Shown here one piece after another: positions 1-5,533 of a stretch of 64,000 bases of DNA. Each line of letters starts with the position of its first letter. Positions within the stretch are counted from its first letter, which is position 1. The translations under genes were made by a program, and so were the position numbers. The stretch spans positions 1 through 64,000 of the forward strand of contig JAFRPG010000029.1 of assembly GCA_017429265.1 (NCBI GenBank), in the 5' to 3' direction. Below the pieces are notes generated by a model. That model had not been told where the DNA came from. It did no database searches and worked only from the letters and a program-made list of their open reading frames with translations. This DNA comes from Clostridia bacterium (GTDB lineage: Bacteria; Bacillota; Clostridia; Christensenellales; Aristaeellaceae).

Positions 1-810
1 GCAGACGCCCGGCATCGGCCAGCGCTGCATGGAAGAGGCCTTCACGAGCCAGTTCATCGGCAAGGGCGGCAAGGTGATGCTGGATGCGGGCATCGACGCG
101 GTGACCGGCGCGACGGTCACGAGCACGGCGGTCGTGCGTGCGGTGAATGAGATCCTCAAGAACGCGGCGGCTCCCGCGGAGGAGAAGAAGGAACCCGAGC
201 AGCCCGCAGAGGCGGCGTCCCTGACGGCGACGAAGCCCGGCTACAACGACGCGGACGTGACGGTATCCCTGGAACTGGACGGAAACGGCGCGATCACGGC
301 GATCACGGTGGACGCGACCTCGCAGACGCCCGGCATCGGTCAGCGCTGCATGGAAGAGGCCTTCACGAGCCAGTTCATCGGCAAGAGCGGCAAGGTCATG
401 CTGGACGCGGACATCGACGCGGTGACCGGTGCGACGGTCACGAGCACGGCGGTCGTGCGTGCGGTGAATGAGATCCTCAAGAACGCGGCGGCTCCCGCTG
501 AGGAGAAGAAAGAACCTGAGCAGCCCGCAGAGGCGGCGTCCCTGACGGCGACGAAGCCCGGCTACAACGACGCGGATGTGACGGTGTCCCTGGAACTGGA
601 CGGCACCGGCGCGATCACGGCGATCACGGTGGACGCGACCTCGCAGACGCCCGGCATCGGCCAGCGCTGCATGGAGGAGGCCTTCACGAGCCAGTTCATC
701 GGCAAGAGCGGCAAGGTCATGCTGGACGCGGACATCGACGCGGTGACCGGCGCAACGGTCACGAGCACGGCGGTTGTGCGTGCGGTGAATGAGATCCTCA
801 AGAACGCGGC
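1..810 (+). repeat. 321-bp tandem coding repeat, nearly identical copies
   Basis: The sequence starting at base 1 recurs at 322 and again at 643 with only scattered third-base or single changes. The period is 321 bp (107 codons). Each unit encodes one FMN_bind domain plus an Ala/Glu/Pro linker. The array continues upstream of the window, so the full copy number is unknown. Confidence 0.95.
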
Positions 811-3049
811 GGCCGCACCGGCTCAGCCTGAGGAAACGGCAAAGCCCGCCGAGGAAGCGAAAGAGCCCGAAGAGGTCTATGTCTATCAGGCGATCGAGGG
901 CGGCATCACCGCTTCCAACACAGGTTTCTCCGGAAAGGATATCACTGTCAGCCTGAAGCTGAATGAGGAAGGCAACGCCATCGCGGAGATCGCGGTGGAT
1001 GCCGGCAACGAGTCGTCGCCCGCCGGCCGCAGGTGCGCAAGCCCGGAATTCACGGATCAGTTCATCGGCAAGGGCAGCCTCCTGACGCTCGGCGAGGAGA
1101 TCGAAGCCGTGTCCGGCGCGACGATCACCGGCTCGGTGGTCGTGCGGACCGTCAACGAGATCCTGGCGCGTGAGATCCCCCAGCCCGAGGTGAAAGCGGA
1201 AGCGGCGGAGCCCGCCGAGCGGCCGGAAATCCAGCCCGCCCAGCCGCTGCCGGTGCGCGAACCGCAGCCGGCCCGGACCCACACGGAAGAAGTCACGCTG
1301 ACGGGCAAGGACGTCGGCTTCACCGGCAATGACATCACCGTCACCCTGACCGTCGACACCGACGGCAGCATCAAGACGATCACGGTGGATGCCGGCAATG
1401 AGACAAGAGACCTCGGTCGGAAATGCATGGAGGCGGCCTTCACCGACCAGTTCGTCGGGAAGAGCGCGCCGGTCGTGTTCGGCGAGGATGTGGATGCCGT
1501 GACCGGCGCGACGATCACCAGCGCCGCCGTCGTCGGCATCGTGAATGACATTCTGGACCGCTGGCCCCCGAAGCCCGGTGAGGAGGAGCAGCCCGCGGAA
1601 GCGGCCGCTCCGGAAGCAGAGGGCTTCATCACAGCGACAGCCACGGGCTTCTCCGGCAAGGACATCACCGTGCGCGTGAAGCTCAACGAGGAGGGCACGG
1701 CCATCGCGGAGATCGCGGTGGATGCAGCCGGCGAATCGGCTGACTACGGCCGGAAGTGCGGCGAGGCGGCCTTCACGGACCAGTTCATCGGCAAGGGCAC
1801 TGTGCTGGCGCTCGGCGAGGACATCGAAGCGGTGTCCGGCGCGACGATCACCGGCGCGGCGGTGGTCAGGGCCGTCAATGAGATCATAGCGGCCGAGATC
1901 CCCCAGCCCGTGCCGCAGGCCGCGGCCGAGCCCGCTGAGCGGCCGGAAATCCGGCCCGCCCAGCCGCTGCCGGTGCGCGAGCCGCAGCCGGCCCGTACGC
2001 ATGACACCGTTGTCACGATGGCCGGCTGGGACGCCGGCTTCACCGGCAAGGACATCATCGTGACCCTGACCGTCAACACGGACGGCAGCATCGGTGGGAT
2101 GACCGTGGACGCATCGGGCGAATCCGAGGATCTCGGCCGCCGGTGCGCGGAGACGGCCTTCACGGACCAGTTCATCGGCAAGGGCGCGCCGGTCGTGCTC
2201 GGCGAGGATGTGGATGCCGTGACCGGCGCGACGATCACCAGCGCGGCTGTCGTCGGCATCGTGAATGACCTGCTGAACAGCTGGCCGCCGGAGGTTCAGA
2301 TGAAAGAAAACAGCGCGCCTCAGGACGACGAGGGGCTCATCACCGCCTCCAACAAGGGCTTCTCCGGCCAGGACGTGACCGTCAGCCTGAAACTGAATGA
2401 GGAAGGCACTGCCATCGCGGAGATCGCGGTGGACGCGGCGAACGAATCGGAGGGCTACGGCCGGAAGTGCGGCGAGGCTGCCTTCACCGATCAGTTCATC
2501 GGCAAGGGCGCTGTTCTGACCCTTGGCGAGGATATTGAGGCGGTGTCCGGCGCGACGATCACCAGCACGGTGGTCGTGCAGACCGTCAACGAGATCCTGC
2601 TCAAGGCGATCCCGCAGCCGGCCGAGGCGACCGTGGAGGCCGCCGAACCGGCCGAACGTCCCGAGATCAAGCCCGCGGAACCGATTGCCAAGCCTGAGCC
2701 GAAGCCCGCGCAGACCTATCCGACCGACGTCCGTGTGACGGGCAAGGGCGCCGGATTCGTCGCCGGGAAAGACATCACCGTGATCCTGGTCATCGACACG
2801 AACGGTGCCGTCAGGGAGATCACGGTCGACGCAGCCGGCGAGACGGAGGACCGCGGCCGCAAGTGCGAGGAAGAGGCTTTCACTGCCCAGTTCATCGGCA
2901 AGAGCGCCCCGATCATCCTCGGTGAAGACGTGGACGCCGTGTCGGGTGCGACGATCACCAGTGCGGCTGTCGTCCGCATCGTCAATGAGCTGCTGAACGG
3001 CTGGCCGCCTGCCGCCGACGCGGCTCAGACCGCGGAAGCCGCGGAATAA
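2..3049 (+). CDS. Multi-domain FMN-binding (covalently flavinylated) repeat protein, 5' end outside window
   Basis: The frame is open from base 2, so the N-terminus and any signal peptide lie upstream. At least nine FMN_bind domains are visible (the first is partial), each with a TGAT or SGAT motif in the context D/E-A-V-[ST]-G-A-T-[IV]-[TS]. This is the ApbE-type flavinylation site, where FMN is attached to the Thr by a phosphoester bond. The acceptor Thr codons are at 113, 434, 755, 1121, 1511, 1844, 2231, 2555 and 2951. Domains 1-3 are nearly identical. Domains 4-9 form three dyads of about 720 bp, alternating an FSGKD-type and an FTGKD-type domain, joined by Pro/Glu/Ala-rich linkers. Related proteins act outside the cytoplasm in electron transfer; that role is inferred here. 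No transmembrane segment or sorting signal is visible at the C-terminus. ApbE is not in the window. Confidence 0.9.
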   Translation, partial: QTPGIGQRCMEEAFTSQFIGKGGKVMLDAGIDAVTGATVTSTAVVRAVNEILKNAAAPAEEKKEPEQPAEAASLTATKPGYNDADVTVSLELDGNGAITAITVDATSQTPGIGQRCMEEAFTSQFIGKSGKVMLDADIDAVTGATVTSTAVVRAVNEILKNAAAPAEEKKEPEQPAEAASLTATKPGYNDADVTVSLELDGTGAITAITVDATSQTPGIGQRCMEEAFTSQFIGKSGKVMLDADIDAVTGATVTSTAVVRAVNEILKNAAAAPAQPEETAKPAEEAKEPEEVYVYQAIEGGITASNTGFSGKDITVSLKLNEEGNAIAEIAVDAGNESSPAGRRCASPEFTDQFIGKGSLLTLGEEIEAVSGATITGSVVVRTVNEILAREIPQPEVKAEAAEPAERPEIQPAQPLPVREPQPARTHTEEVTLTGKDVGFTGNDITVTLTVDTDGSIKTITVDAGNETRDLGRKCMEAAFTDQFVGKSAPVVFGEDVDAVTGATITSAAVVGIVNDILDRWPPKPGEEEQPAEAAAPEAEGFITATATGFSGKDITVRVKLNEEGTAIAEIAVDAAGESADYGRKCGEAAFTDQFIGKGTVLALGEDIEAVSGATITGAAVVRAVNEIIAAEIPQPVPQAAAEPAERPEIRPAQPLPVREPQPARTHDTVVTMAGWDAGFTGKDIIVTLTVNTDGSIGGMTVDASGESEDLGRRCAETAFTDQFIGKGAPVVLGEDVDAVTGATITSAAVVGIVNDLLNSWPPEVQMKENSAPQDDEGLITASNKGFSGQDVTVSLKLNEEGTAIAEIAVDAANESEGYGRKCGEAAFTDQFIGKGAVLTLGEDIEAVSGATITSTVVVQTVNEILLKAIPQPAEATVEAAEPAERPEIKPAEPIAKPEPKPAQTYPTDVRVTGKGAGFVAGKDITVILVIDTNGAVREITVDAAGETEDRGRKCEEEAFTAQFIGKSAPIILGEDVDAVSGATITSAAVVRIVNELLNGWPPAADAAQTAEAAE

Positions 3050-3061
3050 GAAGCACACAGG

Positions 3062-3090
3062 ACCGTCGGCGGGAGTCTCGCCGACGGTTT
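3062..3090 (+). terminator. Hairpin terminator after the FMN-binding repeat gene
   Basis: A perfect 10-bp stem (3062-3071 with 3079-3088, arm accgtcggcg) has a 7-nt loop and is followed only by TTT. The short U-run makes it a modest intrinsic terminator, but it sits 13 bp after the stop codon. Confidence 0.6.
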
Positions 3091-3126
3091 CTCAGATGAA
3101 CCGATCAACGAAAGGGGTGCTGACCG

Positions 3127-4584
3127 ATGATTTTGCGCAAAGCACGGGAGAGCGACCTGCCTGCGCTGTTTGAGTTGTTCCGTATCACGAGCAACCACAT
3201 GACCAGCCAGGGCGTGGAGCACTGGCACTGGGGGGAATACCCGAACGAGGAACTGGTGCGGCAGGATGTGCTCGACGGAAGACTCTGGTGTCTGTACGGC
3301 GAGCAGGGCATGATCCTTTCCGTCACCGTCAGCACGGAGACCACCCCGGTCTACAGCAGCGTCAACTGGCTCTTCGGCATCCGGCCCGGCGTCTTTCACC
3401 GGCTGGCCGTGCATCCTGCCCTGCAGAGTCAGGGCCTCGGCCGCCAGGCGGTGGCGGATGTGGAGACGATCCTGATCTCCCTCGGATGCGACTGCCTGCG
3501 CTGCGACGCACAGGTGACCAACGCACGCGCGGACCGCTTCTATATGTCGCTCGGCATGCGCCGCGCGGGCACAGCCTATCTGGAGGACCGCGATGCGGTC
3601 TATATGGGCTATGAGAAGCGCCTGACGGAGGACTGCCCGCTGCTTCCGATCGCCATGCAGCCGGCCTTCCGCGGCGGGAAGCTGACGCCGTGGGGCGGCG
3701 ACCGCCTCCGGAGCGTGTACGGCAAGGAGATCCCCGAGGTGCCCACCGGCGAGAGCCTGGAGGTCAGCTGCATCCCGGGCCTTGAGTCGAAGGACAGCAC
3801 CGGCGTGCCGCTGACCGAGCTGATCCGCCTCTACGGCGGCAAGCTGGTGGGACGGTACCAGTTCGGCGCCTTCCCGTTGCTGCTGAAGATCATCGACGCG
3901 CAGGAGCCTCTGTCCGTGCAGGTCCACCCGAACGACGAATACGCGGCGAAGCATGAGCACGGGAAACTCGGCAAAACGGAGGCCTGGCTGATCCTTGACG
4001 CGCCCGAGAACGCGGAACTCGTCTACGGCATTCAGCCCGGGACAACGCTGGATCAGCTCAAGACGGCCTGCGAGCACGGTGCGGACGTGGAGCCGCTCCT
4101 CCGCCGGGTGAAGGTGAAGCGCGGGGATGTCTGCTACATCCCGGCCGGCTGTGTCCATGCGATCGGCGCAGGCATCATGCTCTACGAGATCCAGCAGTCC
4201 TCGGACATCACCTACCGCTTCTATGACTGGAACCGCGTGGATGAGCACGGCAAGGGCAGGGAGCTTCACCTGAAGCAGGCCCTCGCGGTGACGGACCCGG
4301 AGGATGCGCCCGAGCCGATCCCCGCCCCGGAGATCCCGGTCGCACGCGTGCTCGACAAGACCTATTTCACCCTCGACCTGCTCCGCCCGCGGCGCGATTC
4401 GTCGGTCCACATTCCGCATATCCGGGACTTCGGTCTCCTGACGATGCTCGACGGCGAGTTGACGCTGTGCTGGGAGCAGGTGGAGCGCACCCTGAAGAAG
4501 GGCGAGTCGCTGTTCATCCCGAATGCAGCACCGCCCATGATCCTGAGGGGGGACGGCCAGGCAGCGCTGAGCATGCCGAGATAA
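3127..4584 (+). CDS. manA: GNAT acetyltransferase - class I mannose-6-phosphate isomerase fusion
   Basis: This is a 485-residue fusion. Residues 1-165 form a GNAT fold, with the acetyl-CoA loop around HRLAVHPALQSQGLGRQA (91-108). Residues about 178-485 form a type I phosphomannose isomerase, which interconverts mannose-6-P and fructose-6-P. The zinc-site motif QVHPND is at 265-270, a Glu in KTEAW at 285, and CYIPAGCVHAIG lies further on. Each half is close to the length of the free-standing enzyme, with no frameshift at the join. The start has the upstream purine run AAAGGGG. The GNAT substrate is unknown. The gene appears monocistronic: terminators flank it and the next gene converges. manA refers to the C-terminal half only. 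Confidence 0.88.
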   Translation: MILRKARESDLPALFELFRITSNHMTSQGVEHWHWGEYPNEELVRQDVLDGRLWCLYGEQGMILSVTVSTETTPVYSSVNWLFGIRPGVFHRLAVHPALQSQGLGRQAVADVETILISLGCDCLRCDAQVTNARADRFYMSLGMRRAGTAYLEDRDAVYMGYEKRLTEDCPLLPIAMQPAFRGGKLTPWGGDRLRSVYGKEIPEVPTGESLEVSCIPGLESKDSTGVPLTELIRLYGGKLVGRYQFGAFPLLLKIIDAQEPLSVQVHPNDEYAAKHEHGKLGKTEAWLILDAPENAELVYGIQPGTTLDQLKTACEHGADVEPLLRRVKVKRGDVCYIPAGCVHAIGAGIMLYEIQQSSDITYRFYDWNRVDEHGKGRELHLKQALAVTDPEDAPEPIPAPEIPVARVLDKTYFTLDLLRPRRDSSVHIPHIRDFGLLTMLDGELTLCWEQVERTLKKGESLFIPNAAPPMILRGDGQAALSMPR

Positions 4585-4600
4585 CCGAAAACACACGAAG

Positions 4601-4626
4601 AGGGAACCGCGAGCCGGTTCTCTTTT
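4601..4626 (+). terminator. Intrinsic terminator of the GNAT-ManA gene
   Basis: A 9-bp stem (agggaaccg with cggttctct, one G-U pair) is followed by TTTT. It lies 17 bp after the stop codon. Confidence 0.7.
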
Positions 4627-4639
4627 CGCGTACGGAAAA

Positions 4640-4667
4640 GGAGATACGCCGTGTCGGACGTATCTCC
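4640..4667 (-). terminator. Intrinsic terminator of the symporter/amidohydrolase operon
   Basis: A perfect 9-bp stem (ggagatacg with cgtatctcc) is followed on the minus strand by TTTTCC. It lies just past the amidohydrolase stop codon. Confidence 0.7.
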
Positions 4668-4681
4668 GTAAAATGCCGTGT

Positions 4682-5533
4682 TCAGAGGCCGAGCAGGCGG
4701 CAGGCGTTCCCGCCGAGGATGGCGTCCTGCTCCGTACCGGTGAGGGGGAGGGCCCGGATGGCCTGGACCTCCGTGACCTGATCCTCCCACGGGGAATCGG
4801 TGCCGAAGAGCACATGGTCCGCGCCGAATGCCCGCACCTGGCGGGTGAAGGCCTCCGCGTCCATTCGGGCCAGGCTCTCCGGGGTGTTGTAGAAGCCGTC
4901 GCCGATGGGGTGCATCGGGCCGAGGGAGAAGGCGGTGTCGATGTACACGCCGCTCCCGCCGAGGAGTCTCGCAGCCTCCTCCCAGCAGCGCCATCCGCCC
5001 ATGTGCGCGAGGATCATCCTGACCGGTCCGACGGCTTCCAGCGCGCGGGCGATCTTCTCCGGGAGCGCCTGCGTCTCACCGGGATAGCCCACGTCATATC
5101 CCGCGTGGATGATGACAGACAGCCCGTGATCCGCCGCGGCCCTCAGGATCCGGAGGCTGCGCGGGTCGTCGATATCACAGCGCTGGTAGACCGGATGCAG
5201 CTTGATGCCGCGGATCCCCGCCTTCGCGATCCGGCCCAGTTCTCCGTCGACATCGTCATAGTCCGGGTGCATGCAGCCGAAGGAGATCAGGCCGGTCTCT
5301 TCGGTGCACTCGTTGATGCGCAGGGAGGCGTCGTTGACCTTGACCACATGCTGCGGATTGGTGGAGACAGGCAGGATCACGCTGCGGTCGATCCCGGCGC
5401 GGCGCATGGAGGCGGTCAGTTCCGGCTCGGTGGCGCCGGTGAAGAGGGCGGTGTGGCATTGGCCCTGCATCTTCCGCAGGGCCGCCGCCGCGATCCGCTC
5501 CGGGAATGTGTGGGTGTGGATGTCAACGATCAT
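4682..5533 (-). CDS. Amidohydrolase family protein (Amidohydrolase_2 type)
   Basis: This 283-residue TIM-barrel metal-dependent hydrolase has the N-terminal metal motif DIHTH (4-8), an internal GIKLHP strand, HAGYD, LAHMGG and a C-terminal FGTDSPW. These are the usual ligand-bearing strands of the Amidohydrolase_2 family. The family includes hydrolases and decarboxylases of many carboxylates and amides, so the substrate cannot be read from sequence. The ATG overlaps the stop of the upstream Na+ symporter gene (ATGA, 5530-5533). That suggests translational coupling and a shared substrate, with the symporter importing what this enzyme processes (inference). Confidence 0.85.
   Translation of the reverse strand: MIVDIHTHTFPERIAAAALRKMQGQCHTALFTGATEPELTASMRRAGIDRSVILPVSTNPQHVVKVNDASLRINECTEETGLISFGCMHPDYDDVDGELGRIAKAGIRGIKLHPVYQRCDIDDPRSLRILRAAADHGLSVIIHAGYDVGYPGETQALPEKIARALEAVGPVRMILAHMGGWRCWEEAARLLGGSGVYIDTAFSLGPMHPIGDGFYNTPESLARMDAEAFTRQVRAFGADHVLFGTDSPWEDQVTEVQAIRALPLTGTEQDAILGGNACRLLGL

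Follow-up and report, generated by a model that had tools for sequence, protein, structure and literature searches.

Gene fusions are commonly taken as proof of linked function, and the gene described here, found in a window of 64,000 nucleotides (the whole stretch of DNA that was analyzed) from a gut-type Clostridia bacterium, places a GNAT acetyltransferase in front of a mannose-6-phosphate isomerase within one polypeptide. The closest described counterpart of the isomerase half is Bacillus subtilis ManA (1qwr; TIGR00218, short form), which is alike over the entire C-terminal part, including Q265, H267, E285 and H344, whereas the window protein has a GNAT in front, the 1qwr chain (~314 residues) being covered by the ManA part alone. 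For the N-terminal half, the stand-alone GNATs 2pc1, 2fia and 3h4q, titled only as acetyltransferases, are alike in profile and fold across the full domain, and stand-alone GNATs of the same bacterial family share the W/YP motif and the acetyl-CoA loop. The stand-alone GNATs differ from the window GNAT in being unfused and in mostly lacking G84 and D122. SbzI (8zt3), a carrier-protein-linked N-acetyltransferase, is also alike in fold (Z 19.4). As far as the accessible parts of two reports describe it, the GNAT AcuA of B. subtilis binds and regulates a metabolic enzyme, AcsA (PMC11255334, PMC11910552). In those parts, this pair resembles the fusion in that a GNAT is physically tied to an enzyme of central metabolism, and differs from it in consisting of separate proteins with a known target lysine, whereas the fusion shows no clear target-lysine pattern. 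No GNAT-ManA fusion is named in the titles or the beginnings of the abstracts among the matches listed from the open-access literature; the fusion combines two known families in a new domain arrangement.

The gene occupies a single ATG frame of 485 codons with zero internal stops in the ORF list and translation, and three Pfam domains score over their cut-offs along it, which bears out the preliminary description of one uninterrupted frame joining an acetyltransferase to a mannose-6-phosphate isomerase. Its features are as follows:

3127..4584, plus strand: GNAT-ManA fusion gene, 485 aa (ORF, Pfam, NCBIfam and PDB searches)
3127..3630, plus strand: GNAT domain, residues 1-168 (PF00583; fold matches 2pc1 and 2fia)
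3220..3252, plus strand: motif of the GNAT N-half, 32-HWHWGEYPNEE-42, consensus QWxWGxYPNEx (alignment, translation)
3367..3390, plus strand: 81-WLFGIRPG-88, ahead of the fourth GNAT strand; W81, G84 and P87 kept in 7/7 decayed relatives
3424..3441, plus strand: presumed acetyl-CoA loop 100-QSQGLG-105, intact in the window (alignment, translation)
3484..3501, plus strand: 120-GCDCLR-125; G120, D122 and R125 kept in 7/7 decayed relatives
3640..4581, plus strand: ManA, type I phosphomannose isomerase, residues 172-485 (PF20511, PF21621, TIGR00218; fold match 1qwr)
3919..3930, plus strand: 265-QVHP-268; Q265 and H267 invariant in 62 fusions
3973..3984, plus strand: 283-KTEA-286; K283 and E285 invariant in 62 fusions
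4156..4158, plus strand: H344, invariant in 62 fusions

A purine-rich stretch, GAAAGGGG, noted by eye, lies 9 bases ahead of the ATG. The promoter scan returned no promoter-like sites at the fusion locus, and the terminator scan returned two terminator-like sites on the minus strand (0.9 expected). An antisense ORF (3025-4815, minus strand, 596 aa) overlies the gene and is longer than the fusion frame; we prefer the fusion frame because of its homology, and the antisense ORF probably arises from G+C-rich codon usage. The codon-based gene caller also picks the fusion frame, but this gene was among the manA genes whose codons trained it, and it is thus not independent. Since 61 further aligned sequences, 36-76% identical, contain the same join, the fusion is neither an assembly error nor a chance product. 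It is also the sole match to PF20511 (type I PMI catalytic domain) in its own genome (3.02 Mb, 92.8% complete).

The C-terminal part is very probably an ordinary zinc-dependent type I phosphomannose isomerase, predicted from its residues and fold to convert fructose-6-phosphate to mannose-6-phosphate. PMI_typeI_cat (PF20511) matches residues 189-275 at 32.6 bits (cut-off 22) and MPI_cupin_dom (PF21621) residues 433-483 at 34.8 bits (cut-off 27), while NCBIfam TIGR00218 (manA) is barely over its cut-off (118.2 vs 116.2). The nearest solved structure by sequence is 1qwr (E 2.7e-48), on which the ManA part of the model (residues 172-484) superimposes with Z 38.7 (305 residues aligned, rmsd 2.2). 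We take Q265, H267, E285 and H344 to be the zinc ligands.

Judging from its sequence, the N-terminal part would probably be a working acetyl-CoA-dependent N-acetyltransferase. Acetyltransf_1 (PF00583) matches residues 89-144 at 36.3 bits (cut-off 20.7), and residues 100-105 carry the pattern Q/R-x-x-G-x-G/A, presumably the acetyl-CoA loop of GNATs. The model of residues 1-168 matches 2pc1 (Z 21.8, 162 aligned, rmsd 2.0) and 2fia (Z 21.6, 157 aligned, rmsd 2.6), with SbzI next in rank, and 3h4q matches at Z 16.6. The RimI profile TIGR01575 gave 25.2 bits, below its cut-off of 86.4. W33, Y38 and P39 of the N-half motif are also kept in stand-alone GNAT relatives and are absent from half-GNAT forms, and W81 (21/21) and R125 (19/21 stand-alone GNATs) are likewise common to the wider GNAT group. 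G84 and D122 behave differently: G84 is present in 65/65 fused GNATs vs 1/21 scored as alone (that one, L165, being cut by a contig end), and D122 in 61/65 vs 3/21. An AF2 model of the whole protein, built on an alignment of 62 fused sequences, has a mean pLDDT of 95.1 and a pTM of 0.91 and leaves little linker between the two parts, the final GNAT strand ending at residue 165 and the first listed ManA strand starting from 180.

The preliminary description had reasoned that absence of the fusion from all close relatives would mark it as a one-off join; on the contrary, the fusion is conserved in the genus and in the family. The 12 genomes of its own genus hold eight full fusions, one cut by a contig edge, one with half a GNAT and two without the GNAT (80% and 88% complete). 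At least 43 of the 200 sampled family genomes carry it (G009 cut by a contig edge), nine of the 43 being from its own genus. Among the matches listed, 9 of 50 genera have the fusion (g1, g3, g9, g14, g15, g22, g25, g27 and g48) and in most other family genera ManA stands alone; both arrangements occur together in some g27 genomes (G188 and G139, for example). Beyond the family, none of the matching genomes in the order sample (114 of 297 at E 1e-30, lowest query start 138) or in the phylum sample (91 of 398 at E 1e-25, lowest query start 134) has a match spanning the GNAT, and no match in either sample extends past the last 35 GNAT residues. The fusion is thus family-restricted in these samples, and sampling does not prove absence elsewhere. 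The relatives with names are Clostridia, either uncultured or assembled from metagenomes; ruminant gut samples account for many of them, and a few bear the label Christensenella(ceae) or Candidatus Limiplasma. Among 342 confirmed loci, the 80 with the best scores, a set biased towards fusions, comprise 65 one-frame GNAT plus ManA proteins (two of them, L061 and L080, truncated at contig edges), one half GNAT (L064) and 14 loci scored as GNAT-less at a first threshold. Of those 14, L088 is cut by a contig end, L086 has a degenerate half-GNAT, and in L092 the frame begins 14 codons past the contig start. The closest named relative among these 80 is L034 (isolate RUG11272), at 76% identity.

The ManA tree fits one fusion event followed by one or two complete losses of the GNAT. 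In this tree of 131 rows (L001-L033 and L154-L188 left out; L088, cut by a contig end, present and assigned to no group), all fused and half-GNAT rows fall within one clade of 87 (SH-aLRT 92), which also contains 12 stand-alone ManAs, namely a clade of 11 (SH-aLRT 96) and L092. GNAT presence and absence requires three changes, which we interpret as a single gain followed by two losses; the tree was built quickly and has open forks, gain vs loss depends on the outgroup, and the second loss, that of L092, is less certain, its frame starting just 14 codons past a contig start. Left out of the counts were the duplicates L125, L126, L127, L150, L151, L152 and L204, the short L197, and L205, which yielded no ManA. 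GNAT and ManA distances agree across 65 sequences (Mantel r 0.80, 0/999 permutations), and the GNAT tree shows two changes, its starred branches forcing just one, which is compatible with a single origin. The fusion is old.

Within this one family the fusion is found with its GNAT intact, with a dead loop, reduced to half or missing altogether while ManA is retained, which amounts to a natural test of catalysis vs structure. The GNAT part varies as follows: First, the acetyl-CoA loop and W33/Y38/P39 are both kept in 55 of the 65 aligned fused GNATs, and G103 with G/A105 in 57 of them (L061 and L064 being excluded from the alignment). Second, the loop is altered in eight sequences, L106, L107, L108, L109, L111 and L112, which have lost it and share one subtree with L203 in the ManA tree, and L074 and L075, which have S at position 103. 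Third, W33 and Y38 are missing from L083 and L084. At last, nearly the entire first half and the loop are absent from L064 (own genus), L086 (g48) and L118, L153, L124 and L202 (g14), while L203 (g14) is a degenerate longer form. The half forms are scattered on the tree: L064 is sister to the intact L034 (99), L086 lies among intact forms and those of g14 sit in an open fork. Therefore at least three lineages have truncated the first half together with the loop, and one clade has lost the loop only. In the loci examined, which came from a ManA-driven scan of the collection that might overlook GNATs whose ManA had been lost, there is no case of ManA decaying in place of the GNAT. In a GNAT-driven search of 60 genomes, every GNAT above 115 bits was accompanied by a ManA, apart from that of L165, which a contig end truncates. 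This decay of the GNAT beside an intact ManA argues against an obligate sequential step, sequential or co-regulated steps being what fusions often mark according to the preliminary description.

The account that we favor, to which as a whole we give a probability of roughly 60%, is that of a housekeeping isomerase carrying an optional acetyltransferase after a single fusion, with the second half of the GNAT serving a structural role. A stand-alone-type GNAT would have been placed in frame before the housekeeping manA once, in an ancestor within one Clostridia family. Selection would maintain ManA, and the acetyltransferase activity would be optional and repeatedly lost, its substrate probably being no mannose-pathway intermediate. 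The GNAT's second half, which adjoins ManA, tends to outlast the catalytic site, making a packing or stabilizing role for it probable.

The evidence for this last part comes from seven decayed proteins (L064, L086, L118, L153, L124, L202 and L203), which represent only about three to five independent cases. Nine columns of the C-half are invariant among them, W81, L82, G84, P87, G120, D122, R125, E163 and L166, and seven of these, L82 and L166 being the exceptions, do not vary in 12 full-length sequences either, five of which have lost the loop; the overlap has a hypergeometric P of 1.6e-6, a value that ignores relatedness and comes from an alignment anchored on the same motifs. The AF2 model of one half-GNAT form, L153, has a pLDDT of 90.8 and a pTM of 0.89, the mean pLDDT of the five models spanning 79.0 to 90.8, and its remnant residues 21 to 80 (block pLDDT 83-93) form a beta-alpha-beta-alpha-beta-beta arrangement ahead of ManA; the underlying alignment includes full GNATs, which possibly aided the model. 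In a fold search with the whole L153 model, isomerases and other cupin-type folds fill the top 50 rows and no GNAT chain is among them. It is possible, and we propose it only tentatively, that several lineages discarded catalysis along with half of the fold and that the C-half now serves the isomerase as a free-standing structural or regulatory module of this beta-alpha-beta-alpha-beta-beta form, with W81, G84, P87, G120, D122, R125 and E163 as putative contacts.

Alternatively, the join may be neutral, with promoter and polypeptide shared by accident between two unrelated enzymes and the GNAT drifting away in some lineages without any structural role, a reading that we consider doubtful and yet worth weighing. 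The repeated decay and the one or two full losses of the GNAT are what it would predict, and the remnants evolve fast, possibly reflecting slow decay rather than a new role: the pN/pS of the remnant C-half is 0.41, 0.83 and 0.62 in three pairs, while 11 pairs with intact GNATs have values of 0.13-0.62 in the first half, 0.16-0.44 in the second half and 0.13-0.30 in ManA. Varied gene neighborhoods and the lack of a footprint on ManA also agree with it. No ManA column is conserved at >=90% in the 61 intact fusions and at <=40% in the 12 GNAT-less ManAs nested among them; a docking surface on ManA therefore did not emerge, and at the thresholds used the nested GNAT-less ManAs keep every ManA residue that the intact fusions keep. 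Neutral drift does not readily explain, however, why the same seven residues survive in 7/7 decayed forms (the P value above ignoring relatedness), why G84 and D122 are almost confined to fused GNATs, or why the truncated forms begin 7 to 32 residues before W81, not 80 as in the full form (at an ATG chosen by the analyst).

Under the favored account the GNAT would have an unrelated substrate, which may be a small molecule or a protein. It had been suggested that the GNAT acetylates the isomerase itself, and such a protein, acetylating ManA or its own chain, might tune the isomerase to acetyl-CoA supply as AcuA does on AcsA. The confident placement of the two domains in the model (pTM 0.91) and the AcuA-AcsA precedent, as described in the accessible parts of its reports (PMC11255334, PMC11910552), speak for this idea, as does K200, a lysine in 59/61 intact fusions and in only 6/13 decayed ones. 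However, K200 is also K without a GNAT (12/12 nested GNAT-less ManAs and 26/30 sister stand-alones), and lysines 254, 280 and 283, taken from the columns with K in >=60% of intact fusions, are equally conserved without it. We therefore rejected K200 as an acetylation footprint, given its presence in all 12 nested GNAT-less ManAs. Position 384 is K in 43/61 intact fusions and Q in 13/13 decayed ones; since the window has Q there despite an intact GNAT, which also counts against self-acetylation, we rejected this position as an acetyl-lysine mimic. With no lysine clearly tracking the GNAT, the suggestion found little support, and we regard self-acetylation as improbable.

The second functional proposal, that the GNAT acts on a mannose-derived or amino-sugar product, can be examined through the neighboring genes. 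These were called by codon scoring trained on manA codons around 131 ManA loci, many with short flanks, and the Pfam scan covered ten genes only, as representatives of recurring families. An ABC transporter gene lies directly upstream in 34/131 loci, and a dUTPase-type gene does so in 29, with an rRNA-adenine-dimethylase-type (rsmA-type) gene as the second gene upstream in 27. The gene directly downstream encodes an HflX-like GTPase in 31 loci. The dUTPase-, rRNA-adenine-dimethylase- and HflX-type families each include 10 to 12 stand-alone ManAs. Pfam gave no match for recurrent upstream families of 16 and 10 loci or for one short gene, and the neighbors of stand-alone GNATs gave no substrate hint. 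The identified fixed neighbors do not point to amino sugars.

A gene with FMN_bind repeats lies directly upstream of ManA in seven loci, the window included. In the window, 29-3049 (plus strand), directly upstream of the fusion, encodes a 1006-aa protein with nine tandem FMN_bind stretches that is RnfG-like by profile.

If the GNAT acetylated an amino sugar, such as glucosamine phosphate, it could couple mannose and hexosamine supply. GlmU scores over its family cut-off nowhere in the fusion's own genome and in only four genomes of the 200 from the family, which calls for a different acetyltransferase; any GlmU match at E 1e-15 occurs in 56 of the 200, often as a half. By comparison, GlmU is matched at E 1e-40 in 119 of 151 genomes in the order sample, many of these matches being halves and 36 scoring over the cut-off, and 8 of the 20 listed order genomes without a match belong to the family. 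A NAGPA-type phosphodiester glycosidase, found in 15 loci, would also fit an amino-sugar role, though in shifting places, mostly three to six genes away. So would the appearance of GNA1 among the weaker profile matches of the GNAT (1i12, E 6.7e-6), a partial match over residues 88-149 only that ranks below about twenty other GNATs.

Elsewhere in the genome, on contig C71 (L214), a 220-aa GlmU-C-like protein (47.7 bits) is encoded between nagB and glmM. We dropped a DapH-like assignment for this protein owing to that place, and it is perhaps a replacement glucosamine-phosphate acetyltransferase.

As a candidate for glucosamine-phosphate acetylation, this protein would be likelier than the GNAT. 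Moreover, G037, G155 and G179 have a GNAT-less ManA and do not belong to the 56 genomes (of 200) in which GlmU is matched at E 1e-15 (the family sample being presumed identical), and G037 is also without a listed match at E 1e-40 in the order sample. Replacement of GlmU as a general reason for the fusion was rejected on the grounds of these GNAT-less members and of the nagB - GlmU-C-like - glmM cluster. Neighbors, GlmU-C-like protein and GNAT-less genomes together lend little weight to an amino-sugar substrate, which we consider quite unlikely; the fusion alone is insufficient to assign the GNAT a mannose or amino-sugar substrate.

Other long ManA proteins were also observed: in L198, L200 and L201 (frames of 748-792 aa) a type I ManA is preceded by a putative nucleotidyltransferase and a putative cupin.
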